Positions 33,839-56,808 of a stretch of 64,000 nucleotides of DNA are shown here, piece by piece; within the stretch, counting starts at the first letter, position 1, and every line of letters begins with the position of its first letter. The translations under genes were made by a program, and so were the position numbers. A model generated the notes under the pieces. It was not told the origin of the DNA, did not search any database, and saw only the letters and a list, made by a program, of their open reading frames with translations. Source of the DNA: Spirochaetota bacterium. Its GTDB lineage: Bacteria > Spirochaetota > Spirochaetia > Treponematales > UBA12059. The stretch spans positions 531,389 to 595,388 of the forward strand of contig JAKLDN010000001.1 in the NCBI GenBank assembly GCA_022703505.1, read 5' to 3'.

Positions 33839-34325
33839 GGCGGGCTTTCACCAATGAGAGCTCTGTCCCCGGGGGATCCCGCCGGCCCGTCCGTCTATGC
33901 CACAATCCTCCGTACTCCCATTCCCAGACCTGGTCGACCTGCTTTGCCTCGACGGGATTCCGGTCGATGTACTCGAAGACCATCAAGAATTGCGCGAAGG
34001 TACGGATGATCCGCGAGAAAAACCTTTCTCCCCAGACATGGCCGACGTACCCATGGATACGATTATAGGCCATGGCGAACACACTCAGGATCCACTGCAT
34101 AATGCGGGAGAGGGATTCCCTGCGGCCCGGGCGGATCATGAGGTGGAAGTGATTCCCCATAAGGGCAAAATTCTCGATCCGGAAGTCGTACCGTTTCCGA
34201 GCCCGGGCAACGACCTGAAGGAAGAGATCCTTCATGCCCCGGTTGTCCAGGATCATCTCTTTCCGGTTCGCCCGGGCAGTGACGTGGTAGAGACCGCCGT
34301 CATGAAGTTCCCTTGGTTTACGCAT
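33813..34325 (-). CDS. REP-associated tyrosine transposase (RayT, Y1/HUH)
   Basis: Predicted 170-residue single-strand DNA transposase of the IS200-like Y1 family. The start MRKPRELHDGGLYHVTARANRKE, the HUH motif NHFHLM (His59, His61) and EYIDRNPVEAKQV with Tyr119 match RayT proteins, which are tied to REP palindromes rather than to classical IS ends. The frame is open 31 codons upstream, but homology starts at the ATG at 34325. REP-like AGCTCTGTCCCC sequences flank it on both sides and one forms part of its own C-terminal coding (PPGTELSLV). Confidence 0.9.
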   Translation of the reverse strand: MRKPRELHDGGLYHVTARANRKEMILDNRGMKDLFLQVVARARKRYDFRIENFALMGNHFHLMIRPGRRESLSRIMQWILSVFAMAYNRIHGYVGHVWGERFFSRIIRTFAQFLMVFEYIDRNPVEAKQVDQVWEWEYGGLWHRRTGRRDPPGTELSLVKARLDSPRPVP

Positions 34326-34352: not shown

Positions 34353-34489
34353 TTTGCTTGCAACAAACAGAAGGTAAGCTCTGTCCCCCGGGGAGTACCT
34401 GCGCGAGCACTGTCCCACGGGGAGTTCCCGTGTAGGGTTGGTTTGCTTGCGCTATACAGAAGGCGAGCACTGTCCCCCGGGGGCGTTCC
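34353..34489. repeat. REP-like repeats upstream of RayT
   Basis: Two copies of a unit beginning TTTGCTTGC and continuing ACAGAAGG, AGC-CTGTCCCCCGGGG start at 34353 and 34442 (period 89). A third partial copy (GAGCACTGTCCCACGGGG) is at 34405-34422. The core consensus is GAGC(A/T)CTGTCCCCGGGG. A further copy is at 33857-33875 at the other end of RayT. Confidence 0.75.
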
Positions 34490-34507
34490 GTCCCCCCGGG
34501 AATTTCT

Positions 34508-40390: not shown

Positions 40391-40602
40391 AGGGCATCTC
40401 CAGAGCACTGAGCGCTCTACGGTGGATCGCCGAAGCGAAGCTTCGGTGCCGCGGGACGGGCGTAGCCCGGTCCCGCGCAATGGCCTCATAATCCACGGGG
40501 CATCTCCCGAATCACGTTGCTTCCACTGCGGATCGCCGAAGCGAAGCTTCGGTGCCGCGGGACGGGCGTAGCCCGGTCCCGCGCGATTGCCTGATAATCC
40601 AT
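40379..40602. repeat. 106-bp tandem repeat carrying mnmG-start copies and BIME-like hairpins
   Basis: TCATAATCCAC occurs at 40380-40390 (the mnmG start), again at 40486-40496, and as the variant TGATAATCCAT at 40592-40602: period 106 exactly. Between them lie two identical hairpin pairs: CCGAAGC-GAA-GCTTCGG, and GCGGGACGGGC-GTA-GCCCGGTCCCGC (copies begin about 40428 and 40534). The unit is thus two hairpins plus a copy of the mnmG start region. Confidence 0.85.
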
Positions 40603-40632
40603 CGACATTCCTTAAAACTTCTCCGGACTATA

Positions 40633-40824
40633 CCACGGAGATCACGGAGGTCACGGAGTAAGCCAGACCGAGATCCAAGAATCAGCAAGATGGAAAAGAA
40701 AAATTTGTGAAGCCAAGATTCAAAGTACCTCCGGACTCCCTCGTACCATCTTTTTGATCTTGTGGATCTTGTTGGATCCCTGGTTTTTGAGCCCTGTTCT
40801 CCGTGCTCTTCGTGTCCTCCGTGG
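40633..40824. repeat. Inverted-repeat element with CACGGAG arrays
   Basis: CCACGGAGATCACGGAGG (from 40633) and CTCCGTGCTCTTCGTGTCC with CTCCGTGG (40799-40824) are imperfect inverted ends. Inside them GATCCAAGAATCAGCAAGATG (about 40672) faces CATCTTTTTGATCTTG and GATCTTGTTGGATC (40748-40780). A half-copy lies at about 45248-45282. Confidence 0.65.
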
Positions 40825-40840
40825 TTCATTCCTGAGGACG

Positions 40841-42298
40841 CTATTTCCCCACGCAGAAACGCGAGAAGATCATTTCCAGCACCGATTCCGGCACGGACTC
40901 GCCGGTGAGCTCCGCCAGGGCGTCCGCGGCTTCCCGGAGGTCCACCGCGGCGGCGTCCAGGTGGGCTCCCGCGGCCAGGGCGGCCCCCGCGGCGGCCAGG
41001 GCCCGGGCGGCGCGGCGGGCGCAGTCGGCCTGGCGCCTGCTCGCCAATCTCGGGGCGGTATGCGGAAGGGGCCGCCCCGAGATTGGCGGCGACGAAGCCC
41101 GTTGGGCTTCGTCGAGGTCTCCGGATGCCCCGCGGTCGAGCTCTGTCCCCCGCGCGTTGCCGGACAACGCCCCGCCCCGCAGACGCGCGCCCAGCTCGGC
41201 CGCCAGGGCCGGGAAGCCCTCCCCCGTGGCCGCGGACAGGGGGATCCAGCCCTCCGGGGCGGGCAGGGCCTCGGGCAGGTCGACCTTGTTCCAGACCCGG
41301 ACAGCCCCGGGCAGGGAACCCAAGGTGTCCAGGTCCCCGGGCCCGGCGCCCCGGGTGCCGTCCACCAGGTAGACCACCAGGTCCGCCCCCTCGGCCAGGA
41401 GGCGGGAACGTCGTACCCCTTCGGCCTCCACCGGGTCCGGGGCTTCCCGGAGGCCCGCGGTGTCGAAGAGGGCCACCGGAATCCCGTCCAGGTCCAGGTC
41501 CGCCTCGATGTAGTCCCGGGTGGTACCGTGGGACTCGGAGACGATGGAACGTTCTTCCTTTAAAAACAGGTTGAAGAGCCGGGACTTTCCGGCGTTCGTG
41601 GGGCCCGCCAGGGCCACCCGGGCGCCCTCGGCCAGGAGGCGGCCCACCGCATGGCTCGCGGCCAGGGCCTCCGCCCGGGATCGTGCGGCCCGGACCGCCG
41701 CGAGGAGGTCATCCGGGCCGTCCGCCAGCTCGTCCTCCCCGTAGTCCAGGCGCGCCTCGGCTTCCGTCAAGGCCGCGAGGACCGCGTCCCGAAGATCCGA
41801 AACCTCCCGCCCCAGGCCGCCGGAGAGGCGTTCCAGGGCTTCCTGCCGGGCTTCCCCGGTCCGGGCCCGGACGAGCTCGTCCACGGCCTCCGCGGCGGCC
41901 AGGTCCATCTTCCCGGCGGCGAAGGCCCGGAAGGTGAACTCCCCCGGCAGGGCCCGCTCGAACCCGGCCTTCTCCAGGGCGGTCAGGACCCCCTCCCAGG
42001 CCGCGGGTCCGCCGTGGCAGACGAAGTCCACCGCGTCCTGTCCCGTGTATCCCGAGGGAGCCCGGAAGACCAGGGCGACGACCTCGTCCGCGTTCCTGCC
42101 CGTCTCGGGATCCCGCACGAAACCGTGCACGGCCCGATGGGTTTCCGCCCGGGAAAGCGCTTCGGGCCGGGAGAAGGCCTTGGCCGCGAGCTCCGGGGCC
42201 CCGGGACCCGAGGTGCGCACCACAGCCAGGGCGGCGGGGACGGGGGCCGTGGCCAGGGCGGCTATGGGGACGTCGAGGCGGAGGTATCCGGAGGGCAT
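40841..42298 (-). CDS. mnmE: tRNA modification GTPase MnmE with in-frame repeat insertion
   Basis: Predicted 485-residue GTPase partner of MnmG. The N-terminal tetrahydrofolate-binding domain starts IAALATAPVPAALAVVRTSG; the G domain has GPTNAGKSRLFN (P-loop), GTTRDYIEA and DTAGLREAPDPVEAEG; the C-terminus FSRFCVGK carries the essential Cys. The ATG at 42298 is the homology start; the frame continues upstream without homology. Between the G domain and the C-terminal helices about 36 residues (SGNARGTELDRG ... GRPLPHT) come from an insertion of REP-like hairpins at 41042-41154. The insertion is in frame and stop-free. Confidence 0.93.
   Translation of the reverse strand: MPSGYLRLDVPIAALATAPVPAALAVVRTSGPGAPELAAKAFSRPEALSRAETHRAVHGFVRDPETGRNADEVVALVFRAPSGYTGQDAVDFVCHGGPAAWEGVLTALEKAGFERALPGEFTFRAFAAGKMDLAAAEAVDELVRARTGEARQEALERLSGGLGREVSDLRDAVLAALTEAEARLDYGEDELADGPDDLLAAVRAARSRAEALAASHAVGRLLAEGARVALAGPTNAGKSRLFNLFLKEERSIVSESHGTTRDYIEADLDLDGIPVALFDTAGLREAPDPVEAEGVRRSRLLAEGADLVVYLVDGTRGAGPGDLDTLGSLPGAVRVWNKVDLPEALPAPEGWIPLSAATGEGFPALAAELGARLRGGALSGNARGTELDRGASGDLDEAQRASSPPISGRPLPHTAPRLASRRQADCARRAARALAAAGAALAAGAHLDAAAVDLREAADALAELTGESVPESVLEMIFSRFCVGK
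41042..41154. repeat. REP/BIME-like hairpins inside mnmE
   Basis: CGCCAATCTCGGGGCGG (41042-41058) pairs perfectly with 41072-41088 (17 bp); CGACGAAGCCC (41090-41100) pairs perfectly with GGGCTTCGTCG (41104-41114); then GAGCTCTGTCCCC at 41138-41150, the RayT-associated core. Confidence 0.85.
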
Positions 42299-42392: not shown

Positions 42393-42427
42393 GGGATTCG
42401 TCGCCGCGAGTCGCGGAGCGACTCGCG
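42393..42427. repeat. REP-like hairpin between mnmE and the barrel gene
   Basis: GGGATTCGTCGCC is followed by CGCGAGTCG-CGGAG-CGACTCGCG (9-bp stem, 42405-42427). The same sequence family with minor changes lies at 52091-52125. Confidence 0.75.
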
Positions 42428-50909: not shown

Positions 50910-52124
50910 CTAGAAGATCACGCGTCCCCGGCCCTCCCCGATCTCCACGGTCGTGCCCAGGAGTCGCGAGGTGTCCCGGAGCCCCGCCAGGATGCGGCCC
51001 GCCTCCTCGGGGGCGGCGGGGCGGGGGGCGTAGTCCCGGCGCTCGATCCGCAGGGGAAGCACCTCGGCGGCCAGGATCCGGCCTTCCGCCAGGGTGATCC
51101 GGAGGGCCGCGGTATCGTAGGTGGGATCCGCGGCCATGTCGAAGACGAAGTTGCCCAGGGAGTAGACGATGAGGCCCTCCCGGTACCGTTCCAGGGACTG
51201 CAGGACGTGGGGGTGGTGCCCCAGGACCAGGTCCGCCCCGGCGTCGATCGCCGCACGGCCGAAGTCCCGCTGGGCCTGCCGGGGATGCCGCTCGTGCTCC
51301 TCGCCCCAATGGACGGACACGACGATGTAGTCCGGCCGCGCGGTCTTCCGCAGGGATCCGATGTCCGCGGCCAACCGGGCGGGGTCCGCGAGGGCCACCC
51401 CGGGGCGCCCGGAGGCGGCGGGCAGGACGCTCCAGATGCCCTCCGCGTAGGCCAGGAAGCCCACCCGGGCGCCCCGGGCCTCCAGGACCGCGGGGGCCCG
51501 GGCGGAGGCCTCGTCGATCCCGGCCCCGGTCCGGGCGATTCCCAGCAGGTCCAGGTAGTCCAGGGTCTCCCGGATCGCCGCGGGGCCGTAGTCGTTCATG
51601 TGGTTGTTGGCCAGGGAGACCACGTCGAAGCCCGCCCATTTGAGCCCGAACAGCGCGCCGGGAGGAGCCCGGAAGGTGACCTCCGCTGGCTTCCCCGGAT
51701 AGGGGGAGCCCGTGAAGGAGGCCGGGTTCTCCAGGTTGCAGAAGGCGATGTCCGCGGAGGACACGAGGTCCCGGACATGGCGGAAGGGCCAGCGGTACCC
51801 GTTCCGGTCGATCATGTCCGCGACCGTGCGGGACAGGAGCACGTCCCCGCAGGCCAGGAGGGTGACGGGACCCGGGGATCTCGCGCCTTCCAGGGAGAGG
51901 GGTACGGAGACCGTCTCCCCCGGGGCGGAGGTCTCGGGAGATCCGGCGCCGGGGAACCGGGGCTGGCAGGCCGCAAGGAGAAGGGTCGGAACGAGGCCCG
52001 CAAGGACGATCGACGCGGCGGCGGCCCGTCCCGCCCGGGCAAAGGCTCGGATCGCGGGAAACCGTCGCGGCAACCTCGACGAAGCCCGCAGGGCTTCGTT
52101 GCCGTGAGTCGCTCCGCGACTCAC
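50910..52124 (-). CDS. CapA-like metallophosphatase-fold lipoprotein
   Basis: Predicted 404-residue CapA/PGA_cap family protein. VTLLACGDVLLSRTVADMI, NLENPA, VVSLANNHMNDYG and VSVHWGEEHERHP with LGHHPHVLQS carry the metal-binding Asp, Asn and His residues of the calcineurin-like fold. A hydrophobic segment ending LLLAAC (Cys51 from the GTG start) is a lipobox. The GTG at 52124 overlaps the nadE stop (GTGA), giving an unusually long N-region; a TTG at 52073 would give a normal signal peptide. The first codons come from a REP-like hairpin. Homologues act in poly-gamma-glutamate or exopolysaccharide metabolism; function here unproven. Confidence 0.82.
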   Translation of the reverse strand: MSRGATHGNEALRASSRLPRRFPAIRAFARAGRAAAASIVLAGLVPTLLLAACQPRFPGAGSPETSAPGETVSVPLSLEGARSPGPVTLLACGDVLLSRTVADMIDRNGYRWPFRHVRDLVSSADIAFCNLENPASFTGSPYPGKPAEVTFRAPPGALFGLKWAGFDVVSLANNHMNDYGPAAIRETLDYLDLLGIARTGAGIDEASARAPAVLEARGARVGFLAYAEGIWSVLPAASGRPGVALADPARLAADIGSLRKTARPDYIVVSVHWGEEHERHPRQAQRDFGRAAIDAGADLVLGHHPHVLQSLERYREGLIVYSLGNFVFDMAADPTYDTAALRITLAEGRILAAEVLPLRIERRDYAPRPAAPEEAGRILAGLRDTSRLLGTTVEIGEGRGRVIF

Positions 52125-52125
52125 G
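52077..52125. repeat. REP-like hairpin pair at the nadE/capA junction
   Basis: CGACGAAGCCC-GCA-GGGCTTCGTTG (52077-52101) and CGTGAGTCG-CTCCG-CGACTCACG (52103-52125). The second hairpin contains both the nadE stop TGA and the capA-like GTG start. Confidence 0.85.
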
Positions 52126-56657: not shown

Positions 56658-56808
56658 GGCTAGGAGTTTGTCGGGCTTGCACACCTTAATAATAGAAAAA
56701 TCGCATTCATGCGATTTTTCTACTTTTCAAACTCCAAAGGAGCCGGATAATCGGGATTTTTAGCGCCTATCGACGCTAAAAATCCACAAGTCCGACAGGC
56801 TCCTAGCC
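56658..56808. mobile_element. MITE-like element, 151 bp
   Basis: Imperfect terminal inverted repeats of 21 bp: left GGCTAGGAGTTTGTCGGG (from 56658), right (reverse) GGCTAGGAGCCTGTCGGA (56808-56791), three mismatches over 21. Inside are two perfect hairpins: AGAAAAATCGCAT with ATGCGATTTTTCT (56694-56721) and GATTTTTAGCG with CGCTAAAAATC (56755-56784). It is much more AT-rich than the flanks. No coding capacity. The lgt stop codon (56803-56805) lies in its right terminus. The first hairpin may terminate transcription in both directions. Confidence 0.8.

Follow-up and report, generated by a model that had tools for sequence, protein, structure and literature searches.

The window, 64 kb of DNA from a spirochaete genome (G000), carries mnmE (trmE) on its minus strand (Table 1). 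The frame is open throughout, all three Pfam domains of the protein match, and its C-terminal end is FSRFCVGK; the start, the ATG at 42298, was picked by alignment with the genes at loci L030 and L031 of two relatives. Between the sequences for the G domain and the C-terminal helices, the frame passes through two neighbouring perfect hairpins, here called A and B. Read on the mnmE strand, the order is TCCGGAGACCT-CGACGAAGCCC-AAC-GGGCTTCGTCG-C-CGCCAATCTCGGGGCGG-(13 nt)-CCGCCCCGAGATTGGCG. A repeat finder and a script both placed the arms of A, which enclose a 3-nt loop, at 41090-41100 and 41104-41114, and those of B at 41042-41058 and 41072-41088.

A first-pass annotation made from the letters alone had reported both hairpins, with stems of 17 and 11 bp, as an in-frame insert between conserved parts of MnmE, and this description holds. 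The longer stem is the longest perfect stem in the window, and two Markov-simulated sequences of 64 kb contained none above 10 bp. The annotation's estimate of about 36 added residues was too high: an insertion is present, but since the length of the MnmE linker varies naturally, the net gain relative to shorter-linker relatives is put at roughly 20-30 residues. The insert region, given there as 41042-41154, extends slightly beyond 41154. The annotation also considered such palindromes rare in an essential gene. That mnmE is essential in this organism is an assumption. Chance would indeed seldom produce stems of this strength, but this genome is rich in hairpin repeats, and in-frame copies are found in three more protein genes.

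The mnmE hairpins have no T-run and are thus not like intrinsic terminators. An Rfam search returned only sub-threshold matches, with no family reaching its gathering score, and a search of a plasmid collection gave no match. The small hairpin at the far end of the insert region is possibly a remnant of another hairpin B, as the motif GGGGGACAGAGCTC stands directly after a hairpin B in one of the relatives (G001).

Table 1. The mnmE insert and copies of the two-hairpin (A+B) repeat in the window
Feature	Position	Strand	Basis or remark
mnmE (trmE), 485 aa, insert-bearing	40841..42298	-	ORF; Pfam TrmE_N, MMR_HSR1, MnmE_helical
Hairpin A (constant), CGACGAAGCCC-AAC-GGGCTTCGTCG on mnmE strand	41090..41114	-	11-bp perfect stem
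Hairpin B (site-specific, hypervariable), 17-bp stem, 13-nt loop	41042..41088	-	Perfect inverted repeat
5' flank TCCGGAGACCT	41115..41125	-	Resembles flanks before A in many other copies (tccggagaactcga, tccagaaacctcga, others)
RAYT-associated motif GAGCTCTGTCCC	41138..41149	+	66 genome matches vs 1 control
Small 6-bp hairpin GCGTTG-CCGGA-CAACGC	41154..41170	.	Direct reading
A+B copy between mnmE and mnmG	40428..40477	+	Sequence reading
A+B copy, tandem with the preceding (106-bp period)	40534..40583	+	Sequence reading
A+B copy, B loop exactly inverted in G002	52077..52125	+	Orthologue comparison
Truncated copy upstream of mnmE start: end of A (TTCGTCGC) and B hairpin CGCGAGTCGCGGAGCGACTCGCG	42396..42427	+	Flank reading

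A dispersed repeat of two hairpins

When the mnmE segment was compared with its own genome by BLAST, the part from 41088 to 41127 recurred at many places. The places that were read show one architecture, a constant hairpin A (pattern CGACGAAGC..GCTTCGTCG), a single C, and then a hairpin B that differs from copy to copy. Copies were read in about 0.9 Mb and at the element loci, and counts beyond these rest on exact patterns. The genome contains 27 occurrences of the core of A, GAAGCCCNNNGGGCTTC, and none of the reversed control pattern; the oriented A pattern occurs about 61 times in its 3.66 Mb (2 for the control). A hairpin B directly follows A in 52 of the 66 copies read, as against 3.6% of random positions.

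Two metagenome-assembled genomes (MAGs) belong to the same genus, G002 (Treponema sp. AS27yjCOA_177, with L030) and G001 (uncultured Spirochaetes SRR6284162_bin.1, with L031). The oriented pattern has 51 matches in G001 and 26 in G002; another genus (g9) has 36, 31 and 11, with controls that are also slightly higher there, and most other relatives have 0-5. Most of the genomes in this comparison are MAGs or drafts.

Copies lie in both orientations, in many unrelated contexts and in genes of different function. Most appear to be intergenic, as judged with a crude gene caller and by reading of open frames. Both tandem copies between mnmE and mnmG are conserved in G002, and the truncated copy upstream of mnmE retains a B with a 10-bp perfect hairpin (42405-42427). 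One intergenic site (L217) differs by presence or absence of the element. Neither a transposase or partner enzyme nor a clear target-site duplication, as would mark a MITE, was identified for A+B, and we therefore infer its mobility from its dispersal and from this one site.

Other repeats accompany or resemble the element. At 40416-40601 each tandem copy comes with a stretch of about 30 bp similar to the mnmG 5' end (CAATRGCYTCATAATCCACRGGGCATCTCC), so that this gene start exists in three versions. CACGGAG / CTCCGTGGTT repeats (40630-40840; L008; L217) flank many elements, some of which have an outer inverted pair around them. A different family of paired hairpins (TAGAAAAATCGCAT.. and GGATTTTTAGCG..) is found at 56693-56722 and 56754-56785, and recurs in contigs C1 and C7.

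In-frame copies in other genes

The codon-usage gene caller was too crude for this G+C-rich genome and missed mnmE itself; intragenic cases were therefore accepted only if reading and alignment showed that the frame covers a recognisable protein. The dispersed repeat was found in frame in mnmE, ileS and two chemoreceptor (mcp) genes, the latter names resting on reading of the translations and, for ileS, also on matches in relatives. The ileS copy (about G000:C9:4913-4965) encodes IAEAEGFGASGAAFGGSR before ANPLDRWIL; versions of it occur in G002, and in G001 it is shortened in frame by 21 nt. The mcp copies, two on C11 and one at G000:C1:224438-224485, follow the signalling domain and precede the C-terminal EEF. 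At least two frames are used: one, in mnmE, ileS and the mcp gene on C11, gives peptides such as LDEAQRASS, GDEARRASS and IAEAEGFGA, and another, in the mcp gene on C1, gives SPKLASAPA. Thus, no single encoded peptide is conserved.

The ileS linker insert is seen at L147 (2414-2466) and at L236, the latter in G028, where a similar peptide (IAEAGGLGAAGTAPGGSGAN) is encoded by DNA whose perfect hairpin of 12 bp differs in sequence. The gene tree places G028 in another family; hence shared ancestry was not assumed, and the G028 insert may reflect either shared descent or a parallel insertion.

How hairpin B changes

At orthologous sites, with stem pairs taken by hand, the stems of B differ by 7 two-sided and 4 one-sided changes, or by 10 and 4 if the more distant ileS of G028 is included, whereas about 0.5 two-sided changes would be expected if the sides changed independently. 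A set of 16 non-identical B hairpins of 27 nt was chosen on length and on having the short form of A. In this set 98.4% of cells pair, and the covariation of 0.559 exceeds that of shuffled sets (0.147; reached in 0 of 500) and of all slid controls. In a few cases the loop is exactly inverted between orthologues, namely GGA/TCC at window position 52077 and GCA/TGC at L208. Selection for pairing alone would not yield such inversions but template switching can, and they fit that type of mutation. In template-switch hairpin evolution, single mutation events are predicted to give perfect stems and multi-base compensatory changes (PMC8794818).

Selection for a hairpin in DNA or RNA, acting through protein binding, transcript processing, attenuation of mnmE or mRNA stability, could equally produce paired changes; the first-pass annotation had suggested that the palindromes may influence transcription or mRNA stability. 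The strong covariation of B suits this, as does the RNA fold of the mnmE strand over the hairpins, which is very stable (z = -4.45; none of 200 shuffles was equally stable). Many B stems are also identical between species although their flanks share only about 84-86% identity, a pattern that is likewise compatible with selection or gene conversion. Against it stand the copies in both orientations, in many unrelated contexts and in genes of different function, the lack of a terminator-like T-run and of an Rfam family at threshold, and the exact loop inversions, which selection of this kind does not demand. We favour template switching on an otherwise tolerated repeat; the main rival, selection on the hairpin, we consider unlikely.

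Some B stems (L125, L151, L164) contain A-run/T-run pairs and look like terminator stems, e.g., CATAAAAAAGGACGGCC..GGCCGTCCTTTTTTATG. In tandem arrays at L189 1500-1800 (G010), L190 (G017), L148 2186-2361 and L146 2292-2537, the last copy alone has a complete hairpin B; inner copies of the arrays in L146, L148 and L190 have the 5' arm, the loop and part of the 3' arm. A more speculative view, which we consider possible but doubtful, is that a dedicated or strongly template-switch-driven process continually rewrites one hairpin next to a constant one and leaves it a near-perfect palindrome, and that the pair has spread into coding sequences, where it adds translated linkers; the partial B in all but the last tandem copies would then hint at strand-specific copying.

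RAYT-type genes and REP sequences

The insert also contains one copy of a separate motif, GAGCNCTGTCCC, of which there are 66 in the genome. This copy (GAGCTCTGTCCC) is what the first-pass annotation had called a 'RayT core', which is thus genuine; the motif lies near four of the five Y1_Tnp (RAYT-type) genes. One of these genes is in the window (33960-34289, minus strand, and 34374-34491), flanked by GAGC[T/A]CTGTCCC repeats; the motif clusters at 414-500 kb of C1, 83-164 kb of C8 and 116-128 kb of C13.

The same annotation took the hairpins for REPs, and a classical origin, in which RAYT-driven insertion of a BIME-like element struck mnmE, draws on these five genes and on a motif shared by the insert and the flanks of the window's RAYT gene. 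The hairpins themselves do not follow this pattern. None of the five Y1_Tnp genes in this genome was found to have a hairpin A within 1.5 kb; GTAG is absent from the flanks of A and B in the mnmE copy and is not a common feature of the 66 listed copies. The repeats are present in G002, where no Y1_Tnp gene was detected, and G008 and G009 show the reverse, with 5-6 Y1_Tnp genes and essentially no repeats. We consider this origin improbable, and RAYT mobilisation of A+B was set aside as unsupported.

GTAG- and CGTC-tagged REPs are stem-loops, often paired, that lie mostly near gene ends and in some cases within ORFs, including tRNA synthetase genes, and CGTC repeats have been reported in Spirochaetes (PMC3733652). 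A+B resembles the intragenic ones as a paired stem-loop repeat with some copies inside ORFs, one of them a tRNA synthetase gene. Unlike them, it carries neither GTAG nor CGTC as a foot outside the stem, and its second hairpin varies by copy. CGTC repeats are further defined by a stem of 8-9 bp whose first two positions are A-T (PMC3733652), and the stem of A, CGACGAAGCCC/GGGCTTCGTCG, lacks A-T pairs there.

History and constraint of the MnmE linker

The insertion is also present in mnmE of both congeners. In G002, B is identical to that of G000 and A differs slightly; in G001, A is present, B is a different palindrome that encodes a different peptide, and the RAYT-linked motif is on the other side, still in frame. 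As the MnmE tree groups G000 with G001 and places G002 outside, the B common to G000 and G002 was probably present in the ancestor, and G001 would have replaced or lost it. A 53-nt run over hairpin B that is identical in G000 and G002 was set aside as evidence, since two more such runs in mnmE equal or exceed it in length.

The linker from the G domain to the C-terminal helices varies in length; G000, G001 and G002 all have a longer one than most relatives. In another relative (L033 10001-11497) the same linker holds an unrelated tandem peptide, GAMHER(T/I/S), which indicates that it accepts unrelated repeats. AlphaFold models residues 376-413 as the long segment with pLDDT below 50, between confident domains. 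Codon changes between G000 and G002 are 7 nonsynonymous to 2 synonymous in the insert and 45 to 105 elsewhere (Fisher p = 0.006), which suggests that the peptide is weakly constrained. Together these data point to a tolerated, weakly constrained linker. That the residues are an ordinary functional extension, with palindromes as a by-product of high G+C codon usage, gains a little from the variable linkers and the GAMHER peptide of relatives but is barely tenable against perfect stems beyond those of simulated sequence, DNA that matches a dispersed repeat family, and a different peptide with a different palindrome in G001.

Origin of the insert and its significance

We propose, with a probability of about 0.78, that the sequence inserted in mnmE is one copy of a two-hairpin repeat that is dispersed in this spirochaete lineage and was presumably mobile in the past. 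Before the three sampled species of the genus split, the repeat would have reached the surface linker that joins the G domain to the C-terminal helical domain. It would be translated as a flexible loop, presumably neutral for MnmE and tolerated since this linker allows its length to change, and only frame-preserving versions would survive. Hairpin A is the constant mark of the family. The sequence of B drifts while its palindrome stays, most likely because template switching in replication copies one arm onto the other, as the paired changes, perfect stems and inverted loops suggest; selection for the hairpin possibly helps.

Palindromic insertions in frame are already known from intragenic REPs and from Rickettsia palindromic elements (RPEs), short dispersed palindromic repeats in frame within unrelated protein genes (PMC10969869). 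By this description A+B is like an RPE, but its host belongs to a different phylum, it measures about 50-75 bp compared with about 150 bp, it is read in at least two frames with no single conserved peptide, and its second hairpin is hypervariable. It can also be likened, by description, to the mitochondrial repetitive hairpin-forming and double-hairpin elements, small hairpin-built repeats that are, however, organellar (PMC2800124). Its perfect stems and multi-base compensatory changes recall the template-switch cases of PMC8794818, which concern RNA genes; the process proposed here concerns a dispersed repeat, some copies of which lie in coding sequence. What is newer is the design of a constant plus a hypervariable hairpin.

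The finding adds a spirochaete lineage, with genes such as mnmE and ileS, to the known cases of palindromic repeats inserted in frame. The family has several dozen copies and includes orthologous sites at which paired changes in stems and inversions of loops lend themselves to counting, which makes it directly testable whether mutation, by template switching, or selection maintains the hairpins.
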